From Isoetes taiwanensis (Eukaryota > Streptophyta > Lycopodiopsida > Isoetales > Isoetaceae), in assembly GCA_021234155.1 (NCBI GenBank), contig JAJEKV010000016.1:20959863-21023862 (forward strand): a DNA stretch of 64,000 nt, in the 5' to 3' direction. The translations under genes and the position numbers were made by a program. A model generated the notes under the pieces. That model had not been told where the DNA came from and did not search any database. It saw nothing but the letters and a program-made list of their open reading frames with translations. Shown here piece after piece: positions 20,374-61,960 of this stretch (position 1 is the first letter of the stretch; each line of letters begins with the position of its first letter).

Positions 20374-20378
20374 AAAAC
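20374..20378. repeat. Target-site duplication AAAAC, right copy
   Basis: Perfect match to 14105-14109. Confidence 0.9.
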
Positions 20379-26095: not shown

Positions 26096-26159
26096 TCAAC
26101 TCCCCTATAAGGAGGGGCTGCTTGATCTCATCACGGAAAGAGATCATGGAACTCGTGAT

Positions 26160-28120: not shown

Positions 28121-28239
28121 CATTGATTGTGCTTGTTGGTATAATTGTGGGGCAAAAATACATCAACAAAACATTTAAAATGCAATAGGATTTATATTGA
28201 TATATCATATCATATTTTAGATACAAAAAGTCTCAGGGA

Positions 28240-29779: not shown

Positions 29780-30084
29780 GGCGAAGCGTGCTGCCGATGT
29801 CAAACTGGGCGGGAGGCGCATGACTAAAGCTGAAAGATCGCCTCAATTGCAGGGGGCGATTACGTGGTTGAGGCTTGGGGGTTATCTTGAGGGGATATAT
29901 ATAGGGAATTTATGCCCTAAAATTTTTAGGGTTTCTAAAACTCCTGACATTTGGGATGAGGCTAATGTTTCTTGGTTAATTTGAGGCTCAAGTGGCTTGC
30001 CTATAGTCTTAGGGTTCTAATGCAACAAATTTTGGTCGATTTGGGTATGTCTAGCTCAAGTTATGAACTTGGGAAGTTGGAGGC

Positions 30085-30153
30085 TGACTCTAAGAGTCTT
30101 GTGGGAGGGGTGTTAGGTTGGGACCTAACTAGGCTCTGGCGCACTCTTGGAAT
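30085..30153 (-). repeat. Hairpin cassette (subfamily-2 type) upstream of copy A ORFb
   Basis: Plus strand GACTCTAAGAGTCTTGTGGG ... GTTAGGTTGGGACCTAAC ... GCGCACTCTTGGAATC. This is the reverse complement of the cassette at 60057-60122 in copy E and in the same position relative to ORFb. Confidence 0.7.
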
Positions 30154-30319
30154 CACCGTGAAATTACTCCAATTGTTCCCAAAACTAATCATGCCTAATG
30201 AATATACACTCTTAAACAACTATATATATTTTATTATTCAAAATTTTTATACATCGGATATAATCACATTAGTTACAAAAAGTTAATTTCCTTCTATCAG
30301 TCCCTCCGCTTGATGTACT

Positions 30320-31483: not shown

Positions 31484-31553
31484 TTATGCGGCAAATCCCC
31501 GATTTGGAGCGGCCAAAAGATCGGCTAATGAGAAGGAATTTCGAGGAAGCACG

Positions 31554-31560
31554 GGAGAAG
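31554..31560. other. Inverted junction between copy A (minus) and copy B (plus)
   Basis: To the left the sequence matches the ORFa leader of copy E in reverse. To the right it matches gag on the plus strand. Both parents share GGAGAAG at the breakpoint, a 7-bp microhomology. Confidence 0.75.
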
Positions 31561-37273: not shown

Positions 37274-37274
37274 G

Positions 37275-37284
37275 TGGTATGAGC
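37275..37284 (+). other. Copy C primer-binding site
   Basis: TGGTATGAGC one base after the LTR. The plant initiator-Met tRNA site is TGGTATCAGAGC, so the CA of a CAG is missing here. Copies D and E read TGGTATCGAGC. Confidence 0.8.
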
Positions 37285-37356
37285 TATGTTCTTGGAGACC
37301 AAGAGCAAAAGCCGCCATGTTCAGTAGCACTAACTTGATAGGATCCTCAAACCTCG

Positions 37357-37384
37357 AAAAATGAGAAATTTTTTTCTCATTTTT
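37357..37384 (+). promoter_or_regulatory. Perfect 12-bp hairpin after the primer site (copy C)
   Basis: AAAAATGAGAAA and TTTCTCATTTTT are exact reverse complements separated by TTTT. The same position in copy E (57895-57916) has a different but also self-complementary GGGAAA...TTTCCC. Candidate packaging or translation element of the genomic RNA. Confidence 0.6.
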
Positions 37385-37472
37385 GTAGTTTATGCTAAGC
37401 TAGTAACTTGATTAAAAAGAATAGAAACGTAAAAAGACTAAAATTGATGAGCCAACATCCAAAAGTAGAATT

Positions 37473-37709
37473 GGTCTCACCGCGTCGCAGAGACGATTTC
37501 TACATTTTAGAAATACCGGGATTTTAACGTCTTGAACATTCGATTTTGACACCAAAAAAAAAGTTGTAAATTACAATTAAAATATCTTGATAATTCTAAA
37601 TTTAAGCTAAGAATTAGTAGATTTAGCATGTTACATGTTAATTTAATAGTGGGCCCCACCATGTCTCACACGTCGGCCGGGGATGGGTTTCTAGATTCTA
37701 GGAATCGGG
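37473..37709 (+). repeat. Hairpin cassettes 1 and 2 (subfamily-1 type), upstream of ORFa
   Basis: 37473-37520: GTCTC...GAGAC followed by ATTTCTACATTTTAGAAAT. 37661-37709: ATGTCTCACACGTCGGCCGG then TTTCTAGATTCTAGGAA, a weaker copy. Unit ~48 bp. Confidence 0.7.
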
Positions 37710-37799
37710 CTGGGCTTAGCGTGAGACCTTGCTTAATTAAGTGTTTTAGATGCCTTAGACAACCCAAAAGGTAGTTTAAAAGTTGACCTAAAATTGGCC

Positions 37800-37881
37800 T
37801 ATAAATAGAACTGGACCCCTCCCATTTTTCCCGTTCTTCACGAGAACTTAATTTCGTATTGTCAAGGCGATCTTCCGGCGC
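37800..37881 (+). promoter_or_regulatory. Internal promoter and leader of copy C ORFa
   Basis: TATAAATA at 37800-37807. Then the leader motif GGCGATCTTCCGGCGC at 37866-37881, shared in nearly the same form with the leaders of ORFb in this copy and ORFa/ORFb in copies A and E. Confidence 0.6.
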
Positions 37882-37906
37882 GTAGCTCAATCGATTTAAC
37901 CGAAAA

Positions 37907-39165
37907 ATGATAGCCCGCGACGGGCGGTACCCAAGGAAGCCCTAGCGAAGCGGATCCTCCAGTCCAGGACGGCCCCTTGTTCATAGGATTCTTCGGGGAA
38001 CGCCTTCTCAGCGTCGGCGGATCTTCGTCGGCGAGGAATCGTGGCCGGACGAGGAGGCGACCATCTGAGAGATCTTGGAGGGACGATCGGCGGGCGTCAT
38101 GGCGAGATCCTCAATGAAATTGAGCGGCTGAGAGTGAAAGTGAGCGGCAGGGAGCAACACCAAGGGGCGCCAACCCACGGGGAGGCGAGAGGGAACAGGC
38201 GGAACCCACCCATAGGCCAAGAACAACCGGGGATGAGATCCACACGCGAAGAGCGGGTAGGGAGAGGACAGCGGAACTCACCCCGAGGAAGAGGCCGACC
38301 CTAGCACGCCTGGGCCCACAAGCAAGTCAAAGAGCCACGGGAGCAGAGATCAAAGGATGGGGAAGACGGGGACCCAAGAAGAGGAGGCCAAGGCCGTCCA
38401 AGGCAGGCAAGAGGAAGGCGGTGAAGGTTGGGAAGAGAGCCGAAGGTCCGGTCATCAACGAGCGTCGGGAGGGGAGACCAGCCCACCACCGCGATTGGGA
38501 CCAAGACTACGTGGCCGGGAGCAGACGGGCGAGCTCTTCAAAGCCCCGGTTGTAGAGGAAGAGGTGCACGAGGAGGCGGCCCAAGAGCGAGGAGGAGGCG
38601 GGCAGGTGGAAGCCCCCACCATTCCGGCGTGGGATAGGGTCAAGGCCCCGCGACGGCCCGGCTGAAGCCTACGTGATAGACCCCTTAAAGGTCTATGAGA
38701 AGAGAATGAGGGAGCACAACGATATATATGGCGAAGTGGGAGGCCTACAACACCTATTACCGGGGAGCACGGGTGAGAACGATCGGCTGGCACCCGGACG
38801 AAGAGCCGGACACTAAAGCCCCCTCCACCAAAACCCAAGGCCCCACGAGCACAGGGAAGAAGAGGAGCAAGAAGAAAGGGAGGAAGAGCGGGGCATTCAA
38901 GGAGATCCGCCACTTCCGAGAAAAGTTCACGGACTCCGATTCCCGTCTTGCCGTTCAGCGTCACGGTCCGCGAAGTCATTCAAGAATACAACACGGACAT
39001 CGCGGCGTGGAGCCGAGATGTTCTTTGTGTTTGCAAGAGGCGCCCGAAGCCCACTTGGTGAAACATTTTGAAGATTCAACGGCCTGCCGCGATTACGCGA
39101 AGAGGGTTACCCTCATGAGGCGGGATATGTATCTTGCCGGACACATCAAGGAGAAGCGCCCTTGA
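37907..39165 (+). pseudogene. Copy C ORFa (diverged N-terminus, many frame breaks)
   Basis: First ATG after the TATA box is 37907 and reads MIARDGRYPRKP then stop, so the H3-like start seen in A and E is not visible here. The rest is homologous: a long charged region (38041-38640), then [17 protein letters not shown] near 38668-38715, comparable with SYTLGPERRYKKEL in E. A C-terminal block follows: [25 protein letters not shown] and [20 protein letters not shown] ending at 39165. No known family. Confidence 0.6.
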
Positions 39166-39309
39166 ACCTTATAAATATTTGTAAAATTTTGTTAATATAA
39201 AGAAAATTTTTGCGTAAATAAAGATGTCCAAACCAGTTTAGATAGGTCAAGATATCGATCCCTAGCCTTCGTTTTAATTAAATTGGAGTTTGGAGCAAAA
39301 TTGAGGCGA

Positions 39310-39556
39310 TGTCTCACCGTCAGCGCCGGGATGATTTCTACATTTTAGAAATCCGGGTGGGTAAGCGATGTGAACCATGTAAAAAATGCCCAAAACAGCT
39401 CCAAATCGACCAAGTAAGGGGTCAATTCTGCCTAACTTCGATGAGATTAGTAGAATTACAGACCTTAGATCACCTAAATTGAGTAATCCCTAGCCCAATT
39501 AGGACCCATGTCTCCTGCGTCGGCGCCGGACGATTTCTACATTTTAGAAATCGGTG
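39310..39556 (+). repeat. Hairpin cassettes 3 and 4 (subfamily-1 type), upstream of ORFb
   Basis: 39310-39357 and 39508-39556: GTCTC, a GC-rich segment with GGCGCCGG, then GATTTCTACATTTTAGAAATC flanked by CCGG/CCGG or CCG/CGG arms. Same unit as at 37473-37709. Confidence 0.75.
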
Positions 39557-39749
39557 AAACATAGCGATATGAACCCCGTATATGTCATCACCAAATGATC
39601 CCCAAATTGCACAATAGGTTCAGTTGCTCTCCTAGCATGCTCAAACTCTAGAAATAGTCTTCAAACTTGCAATTGCATCCCTTAATAGATCAGAATTACC
39701 TAATATCGGTAAAATCTAGGTCATCCCAAAATTAGGGTTTTCCCCTTTC

Positions 39750-39825
39750 TATAAATAAGTTCCCCATTTCTCAATTGGCACCACCGCAAATTTGCTCCCC
39801 CTTTGCTTAAGGCGATCTTTCGGCT
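39750..39825 (+). promoter_or_regulatory. Internal promoter and leader of copy C ORFb
   Basis: TATAAATA at 39750-39757 and leader motif GGCGATCTTTCGGC at 39811-39824, about 50 bp before the ATG at 39875. Confidence 0.65.
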
Positions 39826-39874
39826 CCACTGTACTTCATCGCATCCGTTTGATACTCCCTTCCTTGCTAGATCA

Positions 39875-41400
39875 ATGGCCTTTGCTGATTTGGACGATGG
39901 TGCGGCGCCGGTGCCCATGCCCTTGAGGCGGATGTCAATGACATCTTCAAGTCTTTGTGAAAGAAATTGACATCAAGCTCTATTTGAAACAACCCGGCAT
40001 ATAGGCCGGTGCTAAGCGAATTTCGGCTAGGGTAGGACCCTCCCTTGTCCAAGTCCCCCCCTTGCATAGGATACCGTTCCGCCGTCCCTTCAAAGCGGCC
40101 AGCAGGCGTGTCCCCAACATCGCCAAGTACTTGACTAATAAAGCGCTGAGAGGCTACCTGATTACATGGTCGACAGCCAGCGGGACCAAGTACTTCTCGT
40201 ACACCGCCGCCCTAGCCATCTTCTTATCCCACCGGAGAACCCGATGGGGGCAACCTCTATCCCTCAGATGGAGGTAGACCCCATAGCCGTGGCGAAGGAA
40301 GGGCAAATCTGCTGCGGTATCAACAAGAGCAGGGGAAGCAAGAGAAGGCGAAGAAGAGAGGGGACGACGAAGGATACGAGCTCGACTTCGGGCCGAAGAA
40401 GCTTGGCCAAGGAGGCGAGGCGATCAACCGGCGAGCAATGGGGGGCGAGAAGTTGCTCCCCACTTTGGGCTAGGCATCACAAGCCTAGCCCCTATCATCA
40501 TCGATGGAGAGGAGTATCTACTCCTCGCGACATCGAACCTCCCGAATGTAGGGAGAGGGAGCTCAGGTTGGACGAACTACTCCACCCGGTGCGCGAACCG
40601 ACACGGGCGACTTCATCGTCGGGGAGCATCGAACTTCCGCTCCAAGTGAGGGAGTCCGACACCTACACAGGGGGAGGCGACCTCCAGAGCATCCGGCTTA
40701 TAGCAAGCATCGGGCAATTGATGGGACGGCCCGGAGCTGCCAGCAGAGGAGGAGTTCCTCGCCCTCCAAGAGCAGATGGGGATCCGGTGGGAAGACCACG
40801 AAGTATCCTAATGCCGGGTCCTCCAATATCACCCTTGCCAAAAGGAGAAGGAATCGACCTCGTGAGGCTCGAGCCGCGACAATTGAAGACTACAGGGGAG
40901 CTCACTGGAAGTAGAGGTCGGCCGAAGCGCCTGGAAGCCCGCAGTGGAGGCCAAACAAGCGGAGAAACCCGGCGACACACAGCGGCAAAGGTCGCTCGGG
41001 TACTACTACCCTGCTGGCGATGGATGGGAGAATAGCGGTAATCCACCGCAAGTTCAGTCAGGCGAAGAAGGAGTGTTTATGCTGATTGCACTCTCGGGCT
41101 TGGCGGGCATGCTCGAATAGCGGCAAATGTCGACTATCTTTGTCTTAGTCAAGAGGGCAATGGCACTTGACCTCTTCGACCGCCATCCCCCACCGGCGTC
41201 GAGGGGAGATTAGCGATGGCTGCGGCCCTTACATCCGACCGCGGGGTAGAAGACACTGGTGAGAGCCATCGGGGAGGCTTCGCCCGGCAAGCATCATCGG
41301 GAACTTGGGTCACTTTCGGTAGGGGCGGCCCAAGTTAGAAGTTTCTTGAAGACAACCCGTCTTCACCGCGATTTCAAGAATAGTTAGACTCTTGATCCGG
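39875..41400 (+). pseudogene. Copy C ORFb (extra gene upstream of gag)
   Basis: ATG at 39875 in AATGGCC context. Homology to copy E in separate frames: ADVNDIFKS (E: VDVNIVFQV), VPNIAKYLTNKALRGYL and GTKYFSY near 40105-40205 (E: VPNIAKAL, GKVFFSY). Further blocks are ITSLAPIIIDGEEYLLL ... NLPNVG near 40465-40545 (E: STVIVEGQGILLL ... NLPNAG) and a C-terminal block near 41100-41395. The longest frame, 40166-41035, keeps the correct frame only in parts. Function unknown. Confidence 0.6.
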
Positions 41401-41499
41401 AGACTTTTGTACCTAAAATATTACATGATATATAAACACAATTCCCTTGCACTTTAAATGTTTTATTGATGTATGTTGCCCCACAATTATACCAACAAA

Positions 41500-42900
41500 C
41501 ATAAACAATGCAAGAGAACAAATGGAACTAACCATATAGCCATTAATCACTTGTGGATGCGGCTAGAGGGCTAAAGCTTGAGGGAGCGACAAGCTGCGAG
41601 ACCTTATAGAAGAGCAAACCCTTGAGACCACCACCCCGCAAGGAACCTATTTGAAGATAGGGAACCCATGACCCAGGCGGGAGATAGCCCGGATAAGGGC
41701 CGGATCTGGAGCGGATAAAGGCATTCTTGTCGGGTGCAGCGGGGAGTAGGTTAGGTGGGCAATGCTCGATTCCGCAAGCATCAGCTCGGAGGAAGGAAGG
41801 GACAAGAAGAGGAGCAAGAGAAGGAGATCCCCGGTCCAGGAATCTTCCGGCTCAAGTTGAGACTCGGACTCAGAGCTACGAGGAAGAGGAAAGCGAGCTC
41901 GAGGGGAACCATGAGGAGGAAGAAGAGGAACACCCGGAGGGGCGACAAAGAGATACCGGGGCCTCAGAGCTACGGTAAGAAGGTAGATTCCGACTGGGCA
42001 ATGTATGGAAGGCGAAGCTGGAACAGTTCTCGGGAGAACAGTCAGGATTGGAAAGAGGCATGGTTGGGCGAAATGGCGAAAATATGGAAATGCTTATGGT
42101 ATGAAGGATAAGGACAAAGGCGAGTTGCAACAGCCAACTTGAAAGGAGCCTTCGAATTTGGTGGAAGGGGTATGCAAAGGCACGGCTTAAGCGGGGATGC
42201 TTGTAAGTTCGAGAAAGTTTGCTAAAGCCTTCAAAGCGCCATTCGTTCAAAGGGAACATAAGTCCAAACATGATCTTGTGGTTTTCATGAGGTTGCGGCA
42301 AGGCAACAAATCGATTCAAGAAATATCTGAGAGGAATTCATGAGGCTAAGGTTTGTATGTGCGAAGTTGGGAGAAGCATCTTGATGAAAGCTATATCGAA
42401 ATTTTGAATGAGGAGATCCGCAAGCTTGTGAGAGCAATAAACCCTAGGGACGATATCGAGCGAGAATCAAGGCTATAAGCTTGCAAGAGTCGGGACCTCG
42501 AATAGCGGGCACAAGCGGATACTTCCGGGGAGAAAGGCAAGGTGACAGGAAGCTATAGCCCTGGGGGCGCCGGTCCAGTCCGGCTAGAACACAATATGGT
42601 GGGAACCGGGAAGCGGCGGAGAAGAAGCGGAGTGTCCTTCAAGGACAAGCGAGGAAAAGGTCAAACTACTCCAAAGCGGTGCAATCTTTTTTGCAAGCAA
42701 TGCCCAAGGAAAAGAGCGGGGAGTGCATAAAAGCGGTTGTGCTTGAGGTGCTTCAGTAGGGCCATAGGACGAAAAACTGCCCCACGTCATGAGTGCGGCT
42801 CTAAGCGAGTTGGGAGATCGGGGAAGCCACTGTCCGGGACGGCGGCGAAGAGGCCCGCGACTACATTCCGGGGTGAGTGTCATATCTTTGCATAATAGAT
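41500..42900 (+). pseudogene. Copy C gag region
   Basis: Collinear with gag of A and E. Charged N-terminal part near 41760-41990 (the EEEEEEHPEGRQRDTG frame). Capsid-like part near 42000-42350; knuckle region near 42640-42800 (CNLFCKQCPRKR, then CFSRAIGR-like). The region 41400-41540 before it is noncoding and contains a polyadenylation-like AT tract and GATGCGGCTAG, where A and E have GCATGCAGCTAG. Confidence 0.6.
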
Positions 42901-45900
42901 CTGAGCAAGCGAGAGCCGGTATAAAGGTAATTTCCACGGTAGGGAAGGCTAAAGCTAAGTCATTCATAGTCTTGATAGACTCGGGGAAGTAGCCATAACT
43001 TTGCATCCCGAGAATGGTTCGGATGTTGAAGTTGAAGCCGCTAAAGTCAAAGCCAAGACCCGTTATTTTAGCAAGTGGTGCGATAAAGGCGGGACGGCGG
43101 GCAAGAATTAACCGACATCGACTTGCGAGGGATTAATATCCGGATGGGGGCGAAGTAATGGGCATTGGAAAGTATGACTTGATCATAGGAATGGAGTACC
43201 TTGGGCAGCGGGGGCCATTATCGGCTAATGGAAGCGGAAGGTGACCTTCCCAGCGGCAACGGCAAGATCATTGAGATAACAGTGCGAAGTTGTTCCCATC
43301 ATGCGGTGCATGTCTTCTAAGCGGTTGTTCAAGTGCATCAAGAGTGAGCAAGTGGCATACATCTTCAAGCTTGAGATTAGTGAGCCGAATCGAAGGAAGC
43401 AAAAGGAAGACAACGCGCTCGGCAAGTTGCGAAGCAAGTATCTCGGCTAATCACGGAGTTCCATGATCTCTTTCCGGATGAGATCAAGCGGCTCCCTCCT
43501 TATAGGAAGTCGAGTGCGAGATAGCTTTTCGAACCTGGGACAAAAGCCAACAAGTAAGGCTCCATATAGAATGACAACCACGGGGAGTTGCCGGGCTGAA
43601 AAAGCGATTCGCGAGGGGCTGCTTTCGACCTAGGTTTCATTAGACCTAGCGTCTCGCCCGTTTGGGGCGCCCATTCTTTTGTCAAGAAGAAGGATGGATC
43701 TTTGAGAATGTGCATAGACTATAGGCAGGTTGAATAAGCACACCATTAAGAACAAATCTGGCGCTCCCAAGATCGGGACGACTTGATGGATCAGCTCAAG
43801 GTGCAAAGATCTTCTCAAAATCGACTTAAGGTCGGGATATCACCCGATCGGGATAAAAGGAAGAAGATATCCATAAGACCAGCCTTGAGCGGTATGGGCA
43901 TTATGAGTTCACGGTAATGCCTTTCGGCTTATCAAATGCCCCCAAGCGTTCATGAGGCTCATGAGCGATATCTTCGAGGAGGTTCACGGACACCTTTGTG
44001 ATTGTTTTCTTTGGCGACATTTTGGTGTATAGCAGATCCCTTGAAGAACGCATTACAACACTTGAGAAGAGTGCTAGAGAAGTTGAAGAGGCACCGGTTA
44101 TGCGTAAGTTGTCGAAGTGCCGCCGCCAGCGAGAAAAGGTGGAGTATCTAGGTCATGTGATCTCAGGCGAAGGCATCTCAACGGACCCGCCAAGATTGAG
44201 GCCGTCATTCGATTGGCCAGCGCGAAGAATGTGCATGAAGTCGAAGTTTCCTCGGCCTAGCGGTACTACTGAGGAAGTTCGTGAAGAACTTTGCTAAGAT
44301 AGCAGCCGGATTAACGAGACGGCGAGGGAGAGAAGGTGAAAGATTGGGTAGAGCATTGGCACAAGAAAGCCCAAAAGGGGTTTGAATTGTTGAAGGAAGC
44401 TTTAACAACAGCCCGATCTTAACCACCCGGACGGGAGAAAGATAAGCTTGTAGCAACGGATGCGAGTAAGATAGCTACGGTGCGGTGCTTATATGCAAGA
44501 AAGCGTGTGGTAGCGTATGATTTCGGGAAGATGAGCGGCCAGAGCCTTGGCGCTACCCAACGCCACGATCGGGGAGTTGCCGCGGTTGTCGGGGCATTAA
44601 GAATATGGAGGCATTATCTCTTGGGAAGGAAGTTCGGTTGGATACGAGCCATCGAGCCTCCAATATGTATTCACGCAACCACACCTTAATCGAGGCGTGC
44701 GGAGATGGATGGAGTTCCTCGAAGAATATGACTTTGATATAGTCTACAAGCCGGGGAAGCTCAATGTGGTAGCAGATGCACTTTCAAGGCATCCCCTGGC
44801 AACTAGAGTGCATTGTAATGCAATTTCGATGCTCTCCAGCGACTTTGGTAAAAGGATTGAAGAGTCCTTGCCAGCGGATGTGGATTTCAGGGAAGTATGG
44901 GCAAGCCTTTTGAAGGAGGCTAGAACGGATAAAAAGCGGGGAGGCCTTCAAGCATTATATAAGAAGGAAGGCAACTGTTATACCATAAGAACAAGTTGTG
45001 CGTAAATCATCGGGGTGTAAGGAAGTTGATCCTCCATGACACGCTACTTGACCCAATAATAGCTGGCCATCGGGATTCATGAAAACATATTTCAAAGTCT
45101 TGTGACTATTATTGGCCGGGGAATGAAGAAGCAAATAGCTTCGCTACATCAAGGAATGCCGGCTATGCGGCCAGAGGCGAAAGGCGGGGGCGACCGAATT
45201 CAGGGGCATTAGAGCCATTAGCGGTGCCAAGCGCTAAGTGGGAGGTAATCGGCATGGATTTCATCCGCGGGACTCCCAAGGACGATGAGAGGCAAGGATG
45301 CCTTAATGGTAGTGGTCGACAAGTTGTCGAAGATGGCACATTTTGTGCCTTGCGGAACCTGAGAATCTGACCATGGATACGACAAAGCTCTTCACCAAAG
45401 AGATCTTGGGCTTCATGGCATGCCAAGGAGATCATCTCCGGCGAGGGATCGAAGTTCATGGCGCCTTTGGCAAGACCTCTTTCGCGACGATCGGACGAAG
45501 CTATCCATGAGCCGCGGCATATCATCCCTCGGACGGATGGCGGACGGAGGCCGGACCAGCGATTTTTAGAGGACATGCTACGAAACTATATGCGGAATAA
45601 GCAAGGTATGTGGGAAGAATTTATTCACTTGGTGGAGTTTGCATACAATAGCACCAAGCGGGAATCATCCCAAATGTCGCCGTTTATGATCAATTACGGC
45701 TATCGATTGCCTAACTCGGACACTTGGCACAACCCGTGTCAAAAGTGGAAGTTTTCGCGGCGGATGTTGGCCGATATGCGGCGGCTTCGTAGAGGAAGTT
45801 CGTGGCTATATATGCTAGCGACAAGAAGTCGGCAAAAGAGCGTCGCCGACAAGCATCGAAACGATAAGAGAGTTCAAAGTTGGAGATGATGTTTGGCTCA

Positions 45901-46358
45901 AGATTAAGGTGAAGCGGTGGCTTCGGGATCGGCAATTGCAAGAAGCTTGCTCCAAAGGTGGGCTGGACCTTTCGGAATAGTCGAGAAACTAGGCAATCAA
46001 GCCTACGGGCTAGACTTGCCCGGCACACCTAAAGATTCATAAGGTCTTCCACGTGAGTTTTGCTGAAGAGGCATACCCCCAAATCGAGGCGAAGTCTTGG
46101 ATTATGTATTTGTTGGAAATAGCGGAGGAACAATTTGGAAATAGTCCCAATTGATTCTTGATAAAGCTTTCAAGAAAAGCGAGGAGATCGGAATTCCTCC
46201 GATTATTTGGTCAAGTGGAAACACTTACCGGTGGAAGGCATGCGTGGGTACTTAAGAAAGATTTAGTAAAAGCAAATTACCCACGGTTTATGGAGCAATG
46301 GGACGGCAAGGTCATCTCAGAAGAAATCGGCTCGGGCATGTCGATTTGTGTAGGTTAA
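42900..46358 (+). pseudogene. Copy C protease-RT-RNase H-integrase-chromodomain
   Basis: Protease KAKSFIVLIDSG near 42950-42987. RT near 43560-44250, with FFGD where copies A and D have FFDD. RNase H near 44330-44800 (RRWMEFLEEYDFDIVYKPGK, LNVVADALSRHPL). Integrase near 45225-45700 ([34 protein letters not shown]). Chromodomain near 46100-46350, where the stop shared by all copies follows MSICVG. Order is complete but frames are broken, mostly at former CAG/CTG sites. Confidence 0.8.
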
Positions 46359-47208
46359 TGCTTGTATAGTTAAGATTAATCGCATGCCACCCACGCTTAG
46401 TATGGGTCATCGTTGTCACCGATGATGGGACCACTACGGTGATCTCTAGGCGTGGTGTAATGTCAATGTAGGCATGACCGCGTTCCGCTTTGGGCGAGTG
46501 GAAGGTAGATTAGAAAGTCTATACGTTCCACGGAGTAGGCGACCTCGAAGAAAGGAGGTCATTGAGGAATGCATTGATAGGAAAAGCACCTTTAGCCCCA
46601 TATATGCTTTGATAGGAGGAATCTATCCTTTCAGCCCCCCCCGAGAAGGATATCCTCTGTTGGGCAACTAGAGGTGTAGGCATGAAAGGCATATAGGCAT
46701 GTGCGGTTGTCTCCATGCCATAATGGAAGATTCACCCTCTTCCTACTGTAGGGAGATTAGCCATGCATCCATGTAGATAGGTGGGGTGGTCACCATATAA
46801 CCAAAAATTTTAATTAATAATTAAATGGTACTAGCGTAGTGTCGAGGCCTGTGCAGCCGATTAGAAGCTCAGGAGGGCAAGGAGGTCGAGCCTCACGAAG
46901 ACTTTGCAACACAAATTTTGTTGGAATGTGTTGCAAGGAATGAAGAGTGCCTCGAGCGTTAATTTTAAATTTTGATAAACTTAATCGTAATGTTAAGTGA
47001 AGTTTGGAGTAATTTGTCTAGTAATGTATTGAATTGATAAGTTATTTCATAATATAATGATGTAATAATGTCATAAAAATATTACCTTGAGGTAATTGTA
47101 ATAAATGTGTAAGTATTATAGGAGTATATCATTATGCATCGGGTTGATTGCAAGGTTAGGAAGATTCAAGGTGGGGAGAACCCGCGATCTTTGCGGGCAA
47201 ACATCATT
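46359..47208 (+). other. Copy C 3' noncoding region
   Basis: About 850 bp without a conserved ORF. It contains ATTACCTTGAGGTAAT near 47080 and AT-rich stretches, as in copies A, B and D. Confidence 0.7.
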
Positions 47209-47224
47209 TCAAGGTGGGGGAGAA
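47205..47224 (+). other. Copy C polypurine tract
   Basis: TTCAAGGTGGGGGAGAA immediately before the LTR TGTGACGTTC. Confidence 0.85.
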
Positions 47225-48928
47225 TGTGACGTTCCAGCCGACGATATCGCTCCCGGGATGTATATTATCTTGCGCCGTCCGCATTACCGCCACCCCGATT
47301 GGCGTGTACGCAAGCGTATAGCCAAGTGGGTAGCCCTAGGGGGCAACTTGCTAAGAATGTGCATTAGTATTAATGTGCACATTTTCCAATGTACACATTA
47401 ATGTGGGCACACATTTCCATGTGGCCACTTGATGCCAAGTGGGCCATACCCATAGGTGCAAGTAATGTGCACATTTTCCAATGTACACATTCATTAATGT
47501 GCACACATTTCCATGTGAGCACATTTGGTGCCTACATTTCCATGTGGGCACATTTGGCCACCTAGCCCTTAAAGGCAAGTGGGCCCATTACCAATTATCC
47601 CACATGCCAAAGGGGATAATTGGAAACCCTAGCCACCCCCTTGTCTATATAGGGTAGGAAACCCTAACTAACCTAATTTAATTTTAGGGTTTTAGGGTTT
47701 GAACTTCTGTTTTGGGCTGCCTCAGCGGCAAAAAAGCATCGAACTTCTGCTTGGGAGAATTACATCCTTAGTTTCGAGAGATTGAAGCGTTTTATTGAGG
47801 ATGGTCGAGCTCAGGTCAGGAGGAGCCCCTCAAGGATCAGGTATTTGGCCAATTAGATAGTCTAAACCCTATTTTAGGCATTGAATCAGTAGGTTTAGCC
47901 TATTAGATTGCCCATAGCAGCCCTCTAGAACTCTAGATAGCAGATTCTAACTAAAGAACCTAACTCTATGATATAGATTAGATCTTGTTCTTTAGTTCTT
48001 CTGTGATGTATATGGATGATGTATCTCTGTGAACTCCTTGTATTGGGAAGGGGGGTAGAGACCTAAAGCTTGGTAGTTGATGCTCCTAGAGTAGCCTCTC
48101 TAGCACACTGTAGATGCGGCCTGTGCACAAGAGCCACACCTGGTTGTGGGTGAAGGGGCCAGACTGGCTTATAAGGAGGTTCATGTCCTGACTCTTGAAC
48201 GACCCCTCTGGTGTGTAAAGACTGCCGGGGGTCACTGTGACTAGGTCTAATGGCTTGCCACTGCGTGTGGGCAAGGCATGGGCTCGACACTCGTGAGGTG
48301 GTGAATATGACCTTCCATTGAGTTCAAGTCGAATACGGGCAGTGGCCCTCTAGTCACCTTGAGTCAGCATTGTAGATCTCTGGAGGGAGAAATCCCTACC
48401 TGCCCCATCGGAACTGGGGAGATGTAACCCAGGATATAGCCCCCTTGGCTATGCATCCCGTGAGGCGGCAGTCAGTCCCAACACTTTTCAGCCTACTCGC
48501 AAAGTGTGCGAGGGGCGGATGGAGTGGACAACCCTATGCCATGTTCTTATGCGGCCAAATCCATTGCCATGAGTGCATGCGCAATGAACTCACGGAGACC
48601 CAAGCCGTCAGTCATCCCTTTGAGTCTGAGCCTTGGGTAGGATTCCCTATGTGATGTGCTGATCTTGTCTATGCAGATATGTGGAGGACCATCCTTCGCG
48701 ATGGTCATATGATGTTGATGTATGTGCTACTGACATGTATGTTTATGCTTCCGCAGCTAGGTAGGCCCTGAGGGAGATGGGGTGCAATGACCCTTCCACT
48801 CTTCCCACTGGAACCCGTCACGGTTGCAGTGTCATGTGGAGGGCCCTGTATTAGCATGGAGCTGGTATGGGGGATGAACTCCTGTTTGTATACGGTGAGG
48901 GCACCGTATACGAGTAGGGGACGTCACA
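47225..48928 (+). repeat. Copy C 3' LTR
   Basis: TGTGACGTTC ... GGGGACGTCACA, with a terminal inverted repeat TGTGACG/CGTCACA. 1704 bp, collinear with 35565-37273. TATATAGGG near 47645. Confidence 0.92.
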
Positions 48929-48933
48929 GTCTT
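48929..48933. repeat. Target-site duplication GTCTT, right copy
   Basis: Matches 35560-35564. Copy B integrase resumes at once (CCACGTGAGTTTGCTGAAG). Confidence 0.92.
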
Positions 48934-54210: not shown

Positions 54211-55263
54211 TTGATGGTAGTGGTCGACAAGTTGTCGAAGATGGCACATTTTGTGCCTTGCGGAACACAGAATCTGACCATGGATACAAACAAAGCTCTT
54301 CACCAAAGAGATCTTCAGGCTTCATGGCATGCCAAGGGAGATCATCTCCGACAGGGATCCGAAGTTCATGAGCGCCTTTTGGCAAGACCTCTTTGCGACG
54401 ATCCAGACGAAGCTATCCATGAAACGCGGCATATCATCCTCGACGGATGGCGACAGGAGGCGGACCAACGAGGATTTTTAGAGGACATGCTACGAAACTA
54501 TGTCTGGAATAAGCAAAGTATGTGGGAAGAATTTATTCACTTGGTGGAGTTTGCATACAATAGCACCAAGCAGGAATCATCCCAAATGTCGCCGTTTATG
54601 ATCAATTACGGCTATCAGTGCCTAACTCCAGACACTTGGCACAACCCCGTGTCAAAAGTGGAAGTTTCGCAGCAAATGTTGGCCGATATGCAGCAGCTTG
54701 TGGAAGAAGTTAGAGGGTATCTGCTAGCAGCAAGAAGTCGACAAAAGAGCATCGCCGACAAGCATCGAACAGTAAGAGAGTTCAAAGTTGGAGATGATGT
54801 TTGGCTCAAGATCAAGGTGAAGCAGGCAAAGCTCAGGATCGGCAATTGCAAGAAGCTTGCTCCAAGGTGGGCTGGACCTTTCAGAATAGTCGAGAAAGCA
54901 GGTAATCAAGCCTACAAGCTAGACTTGCCAGCACACCTAAAGATTCATAAGGTCTTCCACGTGAGTTTGCTGAAGAAGCATACCCCAAACCCAGACGAAG
55001 TCTTGGATTCGCCAACGTTGTTGGAAAATGGCGGAGAACATTTGGAAATAGTTCCAGAATTGATTCTTGATAAAGCTTTCAAGAAAACGAGGAGATCAGA
55101 ATTCCTCCAGTATTTGGTCAAGTGGAAACACTTACCAGTGGAAGACGCGACGTGGGTACTTAAGAAAGATTTAGTTAAGCAATACCCACAGTTTATGGAG
55201 CAATGGGACGGCAAGGTCATCTCCGAAGAAATCGGCTCAGGCATGTCGATTTGTGTAGGTTAA
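54211..55263 (+). CDS. Copy D integrase C-terminal half and chromodomain, 350-codon open frame
   Basis: Starts within [16 protein letters not shown] of the integrase core. The stretch around 54280-54480 is out of frame, so the second catalytic Asp is not readable. From ~54480 it is clean: FLEDMLRNYVWNKQSMWEEF, FAYNSTKQESSQMSPF, REFKVGDDVWLKIKVK, KLAPRWAGPFRIVEKAGNQA (GPF module), LPAHLKIHKVFHVSLLKKHT. Then comes the chromodomain, about residues 280-330: VPELILDKAFKKTRRSEF, LQYLVKWKHLPVEDATWVLK. The first aromatic-cage position seems replaced (VPELI), which resembles the reduced chromodomains of some plant chromoviruses. No start codon is implied, as it is part of a polyprotein. Confidence 0.85.
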   Translation: MMVVVDKLSKMAHFVPCGTQNLTMDTNKALHQRDLQASWHAKGDHLRQGSEVHERLLARPLCDDPDEAIHETRHIILDGWRQEADQRGFLEDMLRNYVWNKQSMWEEFIHLVEFAYNSTKQESSQMSPFMINYGYQCLTPDTWHNPVSKVEVSQQMLADMQQLVEEVRGYLLAARSRQKSIADKHRTVREFKVGDDVWLKIKVKQAKLRIGNCKKLAPRWAGPFRIVEKAGNQAYKLDLPAHLKIHKVFHVSLLKKHTPNPDEVLDSPTLLENGGEHLEIVPELILDKAFKKTRRSEFLQYLVKWKHLPVEDATWVLKKDLVKQYPQFMEQWDGKVISEEIGSGMSICVG

Positions 55264-56122: not shown

Positions 56123-57802
56123 TGTGACGTTCTAGCGCGATATCGCCCGGGGCATTATCCGCATCTTTGCCTCGTCACGCAGCGTACGCGCCACTCCGGT
56201 GGCGCGGTAATGCGCTAAGCGTGTAGCCGGTGAGTAGCCCTAGGGGGCAACTTGCCGAAAAATATGTGCAACTATTAATGTGCACATTTTCCAATGTACA
56301 CATTAATGTGGGCACACATTTCCAAGTGGACACTTCATGCCAAGTGGGCCACACCCATAGGTGCAATTAATGTGCACATTTTCCAATGTACACATTAATG
56401 TGGGCACACACTTCCATGTGTGCACATTTGGCCACCTAGCCCTTAAAGGCAAGTGGGCCCATTTCCAATTATCCCACATGCCAAAAAGGGATAATGGAAA
56501 CCCTAGCCAACTCCCTTGTCTATTTAGGGTAGGAAACCCTAACTAGCCCATTTTTCGATTTTAGGGCTTCGGGACTCTGTTTTGGGCTGCCTCAGCGACC
56601 AAAAGCGCATCAGAACTTCGGATTAGGAGAGTTGCATCCTTAGTTTCTCTAGATTGGCGTTTGGCGGGGATGGTCGAGCTCGGTCGGGAGGAGCCCCTCA
56701 AGGATCAGGTATTTGGCCAATTAGATAGTCTAAACCCTATTTTAGTCATTGAATCGGTGAGGTTTAGCCTATTAGATTGGCCATCCGTTTCTCTAGATAG
56801 CGATTCTAACTAAAGAACCTAACTCTATGATTGTAGGTTAGATCTTGTTCTTTAGTTCTTACGTGATGTATATGGATGATGTATCTCTATGAACTCCTTG
56901 TATTGGGAAGGGGGTAGAGACCTAAAGCTTTGTAGTTGATGCTCCTAGAGTAGCCTCTCTAGCCTGCTTGTAGATGCGGCTTTGTGCACAAGAGCCACAC
57001 ACAGTTTGTGGGTGAAGGGGCCGGGCTTGGCTTATAAAGAGGTTAGGTGTTCGACTCTGAGCGATCCCTATGGTGTGTTAGTGCTGCAGGGATCATTGTG
57101 ACTAGGTCTAATGGCTTGCCCGCTAGCGTGTGGGCAAGGCATGGGCTCGACACTCGTGAGGTGGTGAATATGACCTTCCATTGAGTTCAAAGTCGGTAAT
57201 GCGGGCGGTGGCCCTCTAGTCACCTTGAGTCGGCATGTAGATCTCACGGAGGGAGAGATCCCTACGCCCCATCGGGCTGGGGAGATGTAACCCGGGATAT
57301 AGCCCCTTGGCTATGCATCCGTGGCTCTGATCCCGGTCCCAACACTTTTCACCTACTGCGCAAAGTGTAATTGCGGGGAGGGGCGGATGGAGTGGACAAC
57401 CCTAAGCCATGTTCATATGCCGCCAAATCCATTGCCATGAATTACATGCGCAATGAACTCGGAGACCCAAGCCATCAGTCATCCCTTGAGATGCGAGCCT
57501 TGGATAGGATTCCCTATGTGATGTCTTTGATCTTTGTCTATGCGAGATATGTGGAGGACCATCCTCCGTGATGGTCATATGATGTTGATGTATGTGCTCT
57601 TGACATGTATGTTTACGCTCGCCTTGACTAGGTAGGCCACGAGGAGGCGGGTGCAATGACCCTTCCACTCTTCCCACTTTGGAACCCGTCCACGGTTGCG
57701 GTGTCATGTGGAGGGAGCCTGTATTAGCATGGAGCTGGTATGGGGGATGAACTCTGTTTGCATACGGTGGAGTGCACCGTATCACAGTAGGGGGCGTCCG
57801 CG
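56123..57802 (+). repeat. LTR shared by copies D (3') and E (5')
   Basis: TGTGACGTTC start, about 1680 bp, flanked by D's polypurine tract on the left and E's primer site on the right. Contains two AATGTGCACATT blocks near 56277 and 56369. Confidence 0.88.
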
Positions 57803-57894
57803 GTGGTATCGAGCAATGTTCTTGGAGACCAAGAGCAAAAGCGACCATGCTCCCAGTAGTACTAACTTGATAGGACCCTCAAACCTCGAGTAGC

Positions 57895-57916: not shown

Positions 57917-58006
57917 TGGGGTAGAGATAGTAATTATCTAAGATTAAGATAAGTAGAGAACATAGGTAGGATGGAATAAATAATCAAAATAGCACTTTTG
58001 GCCAAT

Positions 58007-58074
58007 GACTCCAAGAGTGCGCCCGGAGCATGTTAGGTTCAGACCTAATGGCCCTTTCGCGCACTCTTAGAGTC
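58007..58074 (+). repeat. Hairpin cassette 1 (subfamily-2 type)
   Basis: GACTCCAAGAGTGCGC at the left and GCGCACTCTTAGAGTC at the right pair over 16 bp with one mismatch. Inside, TTAGGT-TCAG-ACCTAA forms a second perfect stem. Confidence 0.8.
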
Positions 58075-58204
58075 GTCACCTCATATAAACCCTAGAACTT
58101 GACCTTAGGAACTCCAAATGGGAAGATAAAAGATGAAATCCCGATCAAGAGAGTTCGAAATAGCTAGAATTGTATGTTAAAACATCGAAAAACATTAAGT
58201 ACAA

Positions 58205-58304
58205 GTCACTTTTGGAACAGCGACTCCAAGAGTGCGCCAGAGCATAGTTAGGTCCCAACCTAACACCCCTCCCGCGCACTCTTAGAGTCATCCCCAAAAG
58301 TGAC
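58205..58304 (+). repeat. Hairpin cassette 2, extended palindrome of 100 bp
   Basis: Outer arms GTCACTTTTGG / CCAAAAGTGAC (58205-58215, 58294-58304). Middle arms GACTCCAAGAGTGCGC / GCGCACTCTTAGAGTC (58222-58289), inner stem GTTAGGT-CCCA-ACCTAAC. The most complete copy. Confidence 0.82.
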
Positions 58305-58430
58305 CCTTAAAAATTAAATGTAAATTAAAAGGGTCAAAGTAATGATAGGATCCTGCTTAAAATGCTTAAATTAGGGAGTAACAGCATGTAAATTGTGTAA
58401 ATTGGGTGTGTTGGAGCAGAGAAGGCCGAC

Positions 58431-58498
58431 GACTCCAAGAGTGCGCCCGAGCCTAGTTAGGTCCCAACCTAACACCCCTCCCGCGCACTCTTAGAGCC
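58431..58498 (+). repeat. Hairpin cassette 3
   Basis: GACTCCAAGAGTGCGC ... GTTAGGTCCCAACCTAAC ... GCGCACTCTTAGAGCC, about 110 bp upstream of the ORFa TATA box. Confidence 0.8.
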
Positions 58499-58607
58499 AT
58501 TCGAAGAAGCAGCACCAAACAAGACCCCAATTTTGCCCAAGACAGGGAGACTTTTGCCAGCAAAACCACCAGAAGATTAAATCGACCAAACCCTAAAAAT
58601 CCAACCC

Positions 58608-58690
58608 TATAAATTAAGGGACATAGGCTCATTTTTTAGGGTTCTCCCGTGCTTCCTCGAGCTCCTTCTCATTAGCCGATCTTTTGGCGC
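58608..58690 (+). promoter_or_regulatory. Internal promoter and leader of copy E ORFa
   Basis: TATAAAT at 58608-58614, then the leader motif GCCGATCTTTTGGCGC at 58675-58690. The ATG at 58719 is the first ATG after the TATA box. Its context ACAATGGC fits the plant initiation consensus. Confidence 0.65.
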
Positions 58691-58718
58691 CCTGCTCCAA
58701 ATCAGACGCTGTCGTACA

Positions 58719-59885
58719 ATGGCTAGGACCAAACAAACCGCCCGCAAGCCAAAGAAGGAAGATAGGCCCAGCGCCCAAGTGCTCGCAGCTGAACAGAAGC
58801 TCAAAGATGCCGACGAAAAACTGAAGGCTGACATGGAGAGGCGGCCTAGGTATTACAGGAATTTGGAGAGGAGGCGGAGGAAAGAGGAAAAGGCAAAGAG
58901 GAAAGAAGAAAAGGCCAAGAAGAAAGAGGAAAAGGCAAGAAGAAGAGAAGAAAGAGCCAAGAGGAAGGAGGGGAAAGCGAGAACAGAAGCAGAAGAGGAG
59001 GTTGCAGAACCCGAAGATGACCAATGGCGGGAACAAAGAACCAAGAACAGAGAGGACCCCGACCCCAAAGGAAAAAGGGTAATGACCCAAGAACCCCCGA
59101 AAAAGAAGAGAAGAACCTCGGTCGGCGTATCTATAAACGAGCCAACCGAAGGCGAACAATCCCCAACCTCGTCGGAGGAGACTGGCGATATAGCAGCATT
59201 CTTGGAGGCAACCCTTCTCGGAACGGGAGAATCTTCACAGCAGCAGCCTAACCCTCAACCTGAAACAGAGGAAATCCGCGAGGAAGAGCTAAGCCCAACT
59301 CCAAACACAGTTGAGACACAGATTAACCTACCCCCGCCGTTGCCCCCACCATTCGTGATATGGCAAGAAGCAAAGAAGCTAGATGCAGAGAAGGCAGCGG
59401 GGAAGAAAGCAACCAAAACCGCCCGAGACTCGTACACCTTAGGACCAGAGAGGAGGTACAAGAAGGAGTTAGCAGATTACAAAATATACAAGAAGATGCA
59501 CGAAGACTACGCAGCCTACTACGAAGAAAACAGAGTCAAAAGCTGCCGGAAGGAGGGAGGCCAACTCGGGAAGCATTCAGCTCAAACCCCCCTTGAGCTC
59601 AGGAACCCCCAAGAAGCCTATGAAGAGATCCCAAGACTCCCCTTTTGCGAGGAGCCTTGCGGGAAATCAAGCACTTCAAAGGAGCTACGGATTCCTCATC
59701 CAGGGGCAACATTCGAGAGGTTTGTCCAGAAATTTTGTGGGAGTTCGACTCCAACAAGCGAGTAACCAACGACATGTTACTCGCTTTACAAAACGGCGAG
59801 AGATGGAGGTTATGCAGCACTTTGAAGATTCATTAGCATGCACTCTCCATGGAAAAGAGTCACCCTGCAGCCAAAGGATATGAGG
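58719..59885 (+). CDS. Copy E ORFa: retrotransposon protein with a histone H3-like N-terminal tail
   Basis: Open for 348 codons (58719-59765), and its natural C-terminus continues in other frames to about 59920. It starts MARTKQTARK, identical to histone H3 A1-K9, then PKKED with no further H3 homology. Residues ~45-90 are a very Lys/Arg/Glu-rich, probably helical region (RKEEKAKRKEEKAKKKEE). A basic patch PKKKRR near residue 128 looks like a nuclear localisation signal. An acidic/Ser-rich stretch and a polyproline segment (NLPPPLPPPF, near residue 205) follow. ATKTARDS at residues 231-238 resembles H3 ATKAARKS. A conserved C-terminal domain (SYTLGPERRYKKEL, then ELRIP, NIREVCPEILWEF-like and NKRVTNDMLLA) is shared with copies A and C. 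Frameshifts near 59690 and 59790. An in-frame TAG about 90 bp upstream of the ATG rules out a much longer N-terminus. No known family. Confidence 0.8.
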
Positions 59886-60056
59886 CGGCTAAGTACATCA
59901 AGCGGAGGGGTGATAGAAGGAAATTAACTTTTTGTAACTAACGGGGATTATATCGATGTATAAAAATTTTGAATAATAAAATATATATAGTTGTTTAAGA
60001 GTGTATATTCATTAGGGCGATATTAGTTTTGGGAACAATTGGAGTAATTTCACGGT

Positions 60057-60122
60057 GACTCCAAAGAGCGCTTGAGCCTAGTTAGGTCCCAACCTAACAC
60101 CCCTCCCGCGCACTCTTAGAGC
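60057..60122 (+). repeat. Hairpin cassette 4, upstream of ORFb
   Basis: GACTCCAAAGAGCGC ... GTTAGGTCCCAACCTAAC ... GCGCACTCTTAGAGCC. The same unit as before ORFa, with a damaged left arm. An AT-rich AATAATAAAATATATATAG (about 59965-59990), possibly the ORFa polyadenylation region, lies before it. Confidence 0.78.
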
Positions 60123-60304
60123 CGCCCGAACTTCCCAAGTTCATAACTTGAGCTAGACATACCCAAATCGACCAAAATTTGTTGCATTAGAACCCTAAGA
60201 CTATAGGCAAGCCACTTCGAGCCTCAAATTAACCAAGAAACATTAGCCTCATCCCAGATGTCAGGAGTTTTAGAAACCCTAAAAATTTTAGGGCATAAAT
60301 TCCC

Positions 60305-60375
60305 TATATATATCCCCGCATAACCCCCAAGCCTCAACCACAGAACTGCTCCTGCAATTGAGGCGATCTTTCAGC
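60305..60375 (+). promoter_or_regulatory. Internal promoter and leader of copy E ORFb
   Basis: TATATATAT at 60305-60313 and leader motif AGGCGATCTTTCAGC at 60361-60375, 50-120 bp before the ATG. Confidence 0.6.
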
Positions 60376-60425
60376 TTAGTCAGGCGCTCCCAGTTTCGTT
60401 TGACATCGGCAGGCCGCTCTTCGCC

Positions 60426-61960
60426 ATGGCTACAGAAGCCTTCATCAATTGGTATAGCGCCTCCCCCCACATCACTGAAGTAGATGTCAATATAGTATTC
60501 CAAGTATTTCAAAAAGAATTTGACCTTTTCGGCAACCACGAACTCCAATCCTTTCGCGGCAAGTCTGCGGGGAATTCCAAGAGAAAGTTGTCCCTAGCTT
60601 ACGGAAGATACCGCCATGCATAGGGTACTTTGTACCAAGGACCGCATTGCAAGCGACCCTCAGTCATGTACCCAATATTGCCAAGGCATTGAGGAAGCAG
60701 AACCAACCGCTTACCGACCTATATGACCCTAACAAGCAATGGCAAAGTCTTCTTCTCCTACAACCACGACCTTGGCTATATCTAGTATATAGGGCAGAAA
60801 GCGTAATAGGTGAACCATCAATTCAGCCGCTAGAAGTCACACCCTTGGGCCTTGGCGGTGAGATAACGCCCTCTGCTTGAATCTGAAGAGACCATAGCAG
60901 AAGCATCGAGAAGAAAGTGAAAACTCCGGCAGGAAGCGAGGATGACATAGAAAGGTGGACCCGAGGAGGAGGAGGCGCGGGGAAGCGGAACAAGACATCA
61001 CCCGCTTGAAGTTGGCAGACCACCCGAGGATTGCACAACCAAATGGTGGGAATAACAAGCCTAGCACCGTCATAGTCGAAGGACAGGGAATACTGCTGCT
61101 AAATGACATCAAAAACCTCCCGAATGCAGGGGCCAGGAGAGGCTACGCGTCGATGAACTCCTTCACCTCCCTACGGCAATGGCCCCGGATCTAGAAGACT
61201 TCATCGACCAAGAAGCGGAAGATTTTTCCGGTACAAATCTGAGAGGCTACTTACTTACCAGGACACACCATCTGGGACATTGAAGCTTACGGCACTATTA
61301 GAGGTATGATGTGGGAGGAACTTCCCTCTGGAGGAGGAGTTTATAGCACCGAGGAGCAGATGGGAATAAGGGGAAGACAACAAGAGTACTTGCAAGGGGA
61401 GTCTTCTTCCTCACAAGAGCAGAATAGCAAAATTCAAGGGAGAGCCACAAGCGACAAGTGTGCTGGCAGCTCTTCCAAGACTACAAGGAATTAGTTCAAG
61501 TACCCGTGGACCCGGTATGCATCAAGGCCGCGGGGGCACCTCAGGGCACGCGTGGAGGAGTAGGGGGCAGCACTCAAATATTACCTTCGCTCCTATGAGG
61601 GGAGAGTAATAATATTTCCAAAGCGCTTCAGCCCACGCGGAGAGGAAGGCGGCGGAATCTTTGGTAGCACTTCGAGGATTTGGCATGCACGCGCCTATCG
61701 AAAAAAGGTGGACCATGTCATTTTAGTGAAGCGGAAAACAGCCTTGGGCATCTTCGACTTCGCGATTACCCCACAACCGACAAGGTAGGTTGGCGATGGC
61801 AGCAGCTCATACCTCCCATAGGCGGGTGGAAGAGCTAGCATCCGCCATCAGAGGGGGGAACGACAAGGGATATACTTCGGGGAACTTGGGAATGCAGTAG
61901 GTACAGCCCAAGTAAAGAAGTTTCTCGAGGACAACCCGTCTTCTGGGCGATTTCAAGACT
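60426..61960 (+). pseudogene. Copy E ORFb (extra gene upstream of gag), frameshifted
   Basis: ATG at 60426 in GCCATGGCT context: MATEAFINWYSASPHITEVD, then VNIVFQVFQKEFDLF. A frame break near 60560 is followed by IPPCIGYFVPRTALQAT and VPNIAKAL near 60600-60690, GKVFFSYNHDLGYI near 60740-60780, STVIVEGQGILLLNDIKNLP near 61060-61120 and a C-terminal region to ~61960. These blocks are conserved with copy C although the DNA has diverged, which suggests protein-level selection in the past. No recognised domain. Confidence 0.65.

Follow-up and report, generated by a model that had tools for sequence, protein, structure and literature searches.

Few proteins are as conserved as histone H3, and transposon silencing is written on its tail. 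Short mimics of this tail occur in viral and host proteins as motifs without a histone fold; one of them is EZHIP, an H3K27M-like inhibitor. A whole H3-like gene, H3L, has been described from a hAT-type DNA transposon of Pyrenophora tritici-repentis, where it is present in 26 copies (PMC3538342). Ty3/gypsy elements of orchids carry an open reading frame (ORF) for an AlkB-type N6-methyladenosine (m6A) demethylase, as reported in a screen of 121 angiosperm genomes that included no lycophytes (PMC9289625). Plant chromoviruses with group II chromodomains are likewise Ty3/gypsy elements, with the chromodomain at the C terminus of the integrase, and are present in the lycophyte Selaginella; these chromodomains are described as lacking Y24 and usually Y48, and no factor interacting with them is reported there (PMC3350952). 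Here, we describe ORFa, an ORF of high-copy long terminal repeat (LTR) retrotransposons in a stretch of 64,000 nucleotides from the quillwort Isoetes taiwanensis (contig JAJEKV010000016.1, positions 20,959,863–21,023,862 of the forward strand; hereafter the window). ORFa is almost certainly an H3 variant encoded by a retrotransposon lineage.

The hAT-borne H3L of Pyrenophora is the closest precedent for ORFa. Both are H3-like genes of mobile elements; their tail has diverged, and their fold matches neither H3 nor CenH3 (PMC3538342). However, H3L belongs to a fungal DNA transposon with terminal inverted repeats, occurs in few, near-identical copies, and carries insertions in its tail (PMC3538342), whereas ORFa is found in plant LTR retrotransposons with reverse transcriptase and integrase, in three families, with ten tail residues kept by selection and a spacer of ∼290 residues. 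Like ORFa, the orchid ORF was fixed by a Ty3/gypsy lineage from a host epigenetic gene, but it encodes an enzyme acting on RNA, and no histone is among the extra domains named in the section of that study that lists them (PMC9289625). The plant chromoviruses share the carrier type with the ORFa elements; a histone ORF is not mentioned in the available passages on them (PMC3350952). With the short mimics, ORFa has in common that H3-tail residues stand outside a canonical histone; unlike them, it is a whole H3-like protein. A search of titles, abstracts, and passages, exclusive of subscription journals and preprints, returned no LTR retrotransposon carrying a histone.

The window contains three ORFa loci, in copies E and A (E-type) and in element G (G-type). 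The features that define them are as follows.

58719–59765 (+), ORFa of copy E (E-type), 348 amino acids as it stands, with the frame lost inside the histone fold; intact relatives elsewhere in the genome have 377–400 amino acids
58719–58748 (+), codons 1–10 of copy E ORFa (MARTKQTARK), identical to the H3 tail
59654–59917 (+), residual H3 fold of copy E, with shifts of frame
30309–31483 (−), ORFa of copy A, with the same tail and broken frames; fold remnant at 30562–30309
37907–39165 (+), ORFa of the G/C element, disrupted here but intact in G-type relatives elsewhere
39034–39165 (+), clean C-terminal part of the H3 fold with its stop, element G

The sequence ATGGCTAGGACCAAACAAACCGCCCGCAAG at 58719–58748 (+) encodes the first ten residues of copy E ORFa, whose N terminus reads MARTKQTARKPKKED. 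A second site with one mismatch lies at 31454–31483 (−) in copy A and encodes the same ten residues. Taken by itself, the copy E frame finds no match in Pfam or in the protein collection; no match was obtained either when viral contigs were searched with degenerate codons for the tail, or when 26 residues of the tail or two copy E frames were compared with the PDB.

Some 290 codons downstream of the tail, H3 homology resumes as a full histone fold. Behind the stop of copy E ORFa, and at the same place in the two other copies, residues of the H3 fold follow one another in changing frames. Frame-tolerant alignment to the H3 core gave scores of 102 (E), 111 (A), and 164 (G), as against maxima of 43, 58, and 41, respectively, in 400 dinucleotide shuffles per locus. 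Among 424 tiles from both strands of the window, all scores above 40 overlap the three ORFa loci, and these copies score with H3 and not with H4, H2A, or H2B. Element G retains a clean fold stretch of 43 residues (39034–39162), which passes the curated cut-off of PF00125 (6.1e-7) and matches H3.Y in the PDB at 8.3e-8. Three intact E-type proteins from elsewhere in the genome match PF00125 (core histone) at 6.4e-22, 2.7e-21, and 6.7e-19. The first of these (394 amino acids) aligns through residues 299–390 with H3.3 in the PDB (5.8e-20), H3 chains being the best PDB matches. Compared with host H3, the first ten residues of ORFa are identical, residues 11 to ∼40 (the S10-K14-K18-K27-K36 region) are absent and replaced by the long spacer, and the protein comprises 377–439 amino acids instead of 136.

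The initial annotation had noted a perfect H3 tail at the start of a retrotransposon ORF, and both the tail, which recurs in copy A, and the LTR element around it are borne out. Its statement that the ORF diverges from H3 at once after residue 10 holds for residues 11 to ∼300 but fails beyond, where the homology returns; the fold had escaped notice because the frame of copy E breaks inside it. What had been taken for an isolated short mimic is therefore the start of an entire H3-like histone whose fold is complete. ORFa is not Gag; it lies ahead of a separate ORFb and the gag region. The presumed gymnosperm host is in fact a lycophyte.

A query of the protein collection with the fold of one intact copy returned 782 matches, among candidates of about 217–690 amino acids; 120 were listed, and the seven sequences read among these included no relative of the E or G type. 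By pattern, most MART-starting proteins among the 120 have the canonical H3 tail. Three metagenomic proteins (P0084, P0093, and P0109; 335–585 amino acids) combine a long unrelated N-terminal part with a C-terminal H3 fold and are perhaps further unusual H3 fusions.

To place the window copies among their relatives, we searched the genome (1,658,258,908 bases in 1110 contigs). The ORFa of copy E gave 122 matches among 116 scored places. Of 61 E-type loci fetched, 29 are intact from tail to fold (377–400 amino acids), and five without a readable start were left out. The G query gave at least 150 matches, 150 being all that were scored; 50 of these loci were fetched, including three duplicates (L081, L083, and L092), and yielded 14 distinct intact copies of 411–439 amino acids. 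A tail-like start is present in 24 of the 50 G loci (duplicates included) and is exact in 18 of the 24. Both families open with MARTKQTARK, the intact G-type proteins with MARTKQTARKP, and share 65% identity between representatives in the fold, whereas the stretch between tail and fold differs by eye. A mid-protein KK[KRM][KR] stretch is found in all 29 intact E copies and in 13 of the 14 intact G copies. The window copy of G, with its odd N terminus MIARDGRYPRKP, was considered as a relative lacking the tail; this idea was dropped, as intact G copies elsewhere carry it.

The differences between copies A and E (30270–31483 versus 58719–59940) cluster near CG/CHG sites, affecting 129 of 514 such positions versus 38 of 708 others. 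This looks like nanopore errors at methylated sites, instead of or besides decay, so that the frames of single copies are not to be trusted. The assembly was built from nanopore and Illumina reads and comprises 1658.30 Mb in 204 scaffolds and 909 contigs (PMC8566536). Copies A (−) and B (+) meet head to head at position 31559, which is either a real inversion or an assembly fold-back.

Both ends of the protein are under purifying selection. We calculated ω (NG86) over all pairs of related copies, with intervals from a codon bootstrap that ignores shared history. For the 29 intact E copies, ω is 0.039 for codons 2–10, 0.079 for codons 11–60, 0.113 for codons 61–130, 0.329 for codons 131–215, 0.132 for codons 216–300, and 0.055 for the fold. 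The 14 intact G copies give 0.013 for codons 2–10, 0.372 for codons 11–60, then 0.261, 0.211, and 0.113 in the three following segments, and 0.024 in the fold. The E tail is thus tighter than codons 11–60, with overlapping intervals (0.013–0.067 versus 0.034–0.156), whereas the G intervals do not overlap. Between E and G, ω is 0.042 for the tail and 0.071 for the fold, at saturated synonymous sites. Because the intact sets had been chosen partly by start and fold patterns, the test was repeated in loci chosen by a downstream anchor regardless of the tail. Lack of this anchor excluded 8 of the 61 E loci and 32 of the 47 G loci, and one false G anchor was dropped. In the anchor-chosen E loci, ω is 0.061 for the tail versus 0.625 for codons 11–19, and MARTKQTARK is exact in 41 of 53. 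The corresponding G loci show 0.143 for the tail versus 0.219 for codons 11–30, with an exact tail in 12 of 14.

Since selection holds both the tail and the fold as the element spreads, the protein is probably in use. An accidental run of ten residues, or a dead captured fragment, might be suspected from the broken window copies and from the K-E-R-rich composition of the ORF, which makes basic residues common. This reading is effectively refuted by the fold homology (6.4e-22) and the selection test; moreover, 29 of the 61 fetched E-type loci are intact, and the tail is common to two diverged families. The expectation of the initial annotation that the tail is not due to chance thus proved right, no match to ATGGCTAGGACCAAACAAACCGCCCGCAAG being found in 100 shuffles of the window, and its concern that most other copies might lack MARTKQTARK is answered by the anchor-chosen E-type loci. 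Given a complete fold joined to the tail, homology through gene capture explains the tail better than mimicry.

The conserved positions of the fold speak to how the protein may be used. Residues matching H3 R83, C110, H113, K115, R116, T118, and L126 are invariant in all 43 intact copies (E and G), and D123, R69, and R72 are each kept in 42, although some of these counts are helped by the choice of the intact sets, whose selection patterns covered parts of the start and fold. We take the roles of these positions to be those in H3, facing H4 and DNA, and their retention favors a use inside nucleosomes. Alternatively, ORFa could serve as a decoy, in which, as the initial annotation suggested, a free ARTKQTARK titrates or recruits host readers and writers of H3K4 and H3K9, while the fold ties up H4 or chaperones, or stabilizes the protein, without entering nucleosomes. 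The constraint on the tail, which is at least that on the fold, the long charged spacer, which would hold the tail far from the nucleosome surface, and the change of R63 would all suit a decoy. However, a decoy needs no DNA-facing residues, and yet R83, R116, and T118 are kept throughout and R69 and R72 nearly so. We therefore consider a decoy rather unlikely.

A third, high-copy family of H3-bearing loci, termed K, came to light with an H3 query of the genome, which returned at least 15 full-length host H3 matches (96–98%) and at least 135 further matches at 71–86%, many in frames of more than 400 amino acids. Four of these 135 were read, and all are open proteins that start with MAITKSAPDP (413 amino acids in L120) and end in a near-canonical H3 core; the reading of K as a family rests on these four, and the other 131 may be something else. 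In all four, the core lacks the tail and follows an unrelated N-terminal domain, which further speaks against a decoy. At one K locus, the LTR end CGTCACA precedes TGGTATCAGAGC upstream, and part of the LTR resembles those of the window (86% over 112 columns). Host H3 references were taken from loci L119 and L123–L125, and K loci are L120, L121, L122, L126, and L127. Identity to host H3 in the fold is 51% for E, 58% for G, and 85% for K. In a fold tree based on a short alignment and few references, K groups with H3, E and G are set apart by a split with a support of 100, and the plant CENH3s fall together (97). K is thus probably a second, separate capture of H3, two captures being the simplest reading of the tree.

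The fold tree also bears on a centromeric origin, in which ORFa would derive from CENH3 and steer copies to centromeres. E and G have a proline at H3 R63 and an [ILF]P..[AP]F pattern, as in plant CENH3s, and the long divergent N-terminal part would fit as well. Against this, loop 1 of E, G, and K has no extra residues relative to H3, as opposed to one or two in plant CENH3s; E and G stand apart from both CENH3 and H3 in the tree, short as its alignment is; and their identity to CENH3 (47–58%) does not exceed that to H3 (51 and 58%). A derivation from CENH3 is therefore highly improbable.

The carrier is a Ty3/gypsy-type LTR retrotransposon, as is evident from TG...CA LTR ends, a target-site duplication, a tRNA primer site, reverse transcriptase, RNase H, integrase, and a chromodomain. 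Its parts in the window are the following.

56123–57802 (+), LTR directly before copy E, starting with TGTGACG; end approximate
57804–57815 (+), primer-binding site TGGTATCGAGCA; ORFa follows 922 bp after the LTR end motif
35565–48928 (+), full-length LTR retrotransposon (G/C copy) with a G-type ORFa; LTRs 93% identical over 1682 columns
35565–37275 (+), 5′ LTR of the full-length element, followed by TGGTATGAGC; end approximate
47224–48928 (+), 3′ LTR of the full-length element; start approximate
35560–35564 (no strand), left target-site duplication GTCTT, 5 bp
48929–48933 (no strand), right target-site duplication GTCTT, 5 bp
54214–55263 (+), C-terminal part of the integrase with chromodomain, related copy F (Pfam Chromo, 8.8e-10)

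The elements are organized as LTR, primer-binding site, leader, ORFa, ORFb, gag region (by eye), protease-like stretch (by eye), pol, and LTR. The LTRs extend from TGTGACG to CGTCACA, with primer sites of the TGGTATC type behind them; TGGTATCGAGCA is presumably of the initiator-Met type. The full-length element is nested inside another copy, and the uninterrupted target is seen in three other copies. Pfam domains in copies F and A are RVT_1, RT_RNaseH, Integrase_H2C2, SH3_Tf2-1, and Chromo, and the chromodomain of copy F keeps one of three aromatic cage residues (by eye). Copy A aligns with E over 26215–31559 and with C over 20741–28306, placing an E-type ORFa and pol in one stretch.

Parts of this organization recur elsewhere in the genome. 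In 13 of the 14 intact G copies, the LTR end and primer site lie 648–672 bp upstream of the ATG; among eight E loci with long flanks they are clear in six (922–988 bp), poor in one, and absent in one. A match to the integrase-chromodomain follows 6.2–7.9 kb downstream on the same strand in at least 15 of 150 G-type H3 loci (0.06 expected), with no other arrangement within 12 kb, and an RNase H match shows the same-strand link in at least 16 of 150 (0.08 expected), with one other arrangement; these counts are lower bounds from the best 116 and 150 pol matches.

Its position as the first ORF after the primer site, its highly basic first third, and the stretch resembling a nuclear localization signal (NLS) would also allow ORFa to act in packaging. 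An H3-like protein, alone or with host H4, would then coat the RNA or cDNA of the element much as a nucleocapsid or viral histone does, either within the particle or in the course of import. This leaves the letter-exact retention of the tail unexplained, and a separate gag region exists (by eye), which makes packaging very unlikely.

The leader in front of ORFa is promoter-like, with two conserved features in copy E.

58608–58614 (+), TATAAAT, ∼110 nt before the ATG of ORFa
58676–58688 (+), conserved leader motif CCGATCTTTTGGC, 42 nt before the ATG

A TATA-like sequence is found in 28 of 29 intact E copies (at −110 to −114, in one at −34) and in all 14 intact G copies (−109 to −111), and CGATCTTYYGGC stands at −41 or −42 in 23 of 29 E and 13 of 14 G copies. 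With up to three mismatches, GCGATCTTTYGGC is not enriched in the whole window (41 found, 28.75 expected, as many in 2 of 100 shuffles); the six matches with no or one mismatch, in copies A, E, and G, all stand ahead of an ORFa or ORFb start. Both families have a further extra ORF, ORFb, between ORFa and gag (60428–61900 and 39885–41050), which is disrupted in the copies of the window. In both window families, each of the two ORFs is preceded by a TATA box and a GCGATCTTTCGGC-like motif (37800–37915, 39750–39900, 58608–58719, and 60305–60430), which suggests that ORFa and ORFb have separate transcripts, each from its own transcription unit inside the retrotransposon.

We propose that a host gene for H3 or an H3 variant was captured between the primer-binding site and gag and then diverged, keeping the first ten residues and the histone fold, while residues 11 to ∼300 would have become a long charged spacer with the NLS-like KK[KRM][KR]. 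The protein would be expressed, probably from its own promoter-like leader, and imported into the nucleus, and removal of the initial methionine would expose ARTKQTARK. Most likely, it would pair with host H4 and enter nucleosomes on element copies or at insertion sites. The resulting tail could be written and read at R2, T3, K4, R8, and K9, with proline or valine replacing S10 and the rest of the H3 tail gone. The element might benefit by evading or steering silencing; possible uses are to mark its copies, to block silencing, or to provide a landing mark for its own integrase. For a retrotransposon H3 variant that enters nucleosomes with host H4, identity and mechanism taken together, we estimate a probability of about 60%.

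Several observations weigh against this proposal. All ORFa copies in the window are broken. Proline takes the place of H3 R63 in 28 of the 29 intact E copies and in all 14 intact G copies, and K79 is aspartate or asparagine; nucleosomes might therefore have an altered form or fail to assemble. Some E tails deviate at K4, R8, or K9; the contrast between tail and neighboring codons is small in the anchor-chosen G loci, because one of the 14 tails is damaged; and the ω values derive from all pairs of related copies and from partly pattern-selected sets. As K shows, an element of this kind does not always require the tail. Apart from copy A of the window, a link of E-type loci to the tested pol was seen in 0 of 70 cases with the integrase query and 1 of 115 with the RNase H query, both being lower bounds from the best pol matches. 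Structure models were of low confidence (predicted local distance difference test, pLDDT, of 59.7 for the full-length model), with the top structural matches on the coiled part, and were not used as proof.

In a further extension, the elements would form nucleosomes of their own, with their H3 variant on element DNA or insertion sites being read by their integrase chromodomain of the group II type. Such a mark-and-reader system could steer integration, silencing, or self-nesting, and H3 would have been captured at least twice for this purpose; we regard this extension as doubtful. ORFa makes it possible to test what plant group II chromodomains bind, and it provides a naturally occurring H3 variant whose tail is limited to the K4 and K9 portion. 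A lineage with its own H3, an exact tail start under strong selection, and probably two captures would show transposons acting on the nucleosome itself.

ORFb was considered as another histone, which found no support: the scores of its three copies with H3, H4, H2A, and H2B lie within the range of 100 shuffles each, the best being those of A with H2B (reached by 1 of 100 shuffles) and of G with H2A (6 of 100). A separate gypsy-type element lies at 14110–20374 (−); it is chromodomain-free or unassigned, has end repeats of ∼650 bp that are 97% identical, and carries a Gag-protease ORF (Retrotrans_gag, RVP_2).

Finally, folding predictions point to a recurrent hairpin motif of 70 nt around ORFa of copy E.

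58006–58077 (+), first predicted hairpin, leader before ORFa
58221–58291 (+), second predicted hairpin, leader before ORFa
58430–58500 (+), third predicted hairpin, leader before ORFa
60056–60124 (+), fourth predicted hairpin, between ORFa and ORFb

A search of the window against Rfam at gathering scores, and for tRNAs, gave no match. In coordinate order, the predicted hairpins have folding energies of −37.3, −37.8, −32.5, and −21.3 kcal/mol (z of −7.0, −11.4, −9.6, and −4.2), and at least one copy of the motif is present in 58 of 60 fetched E-type loci.
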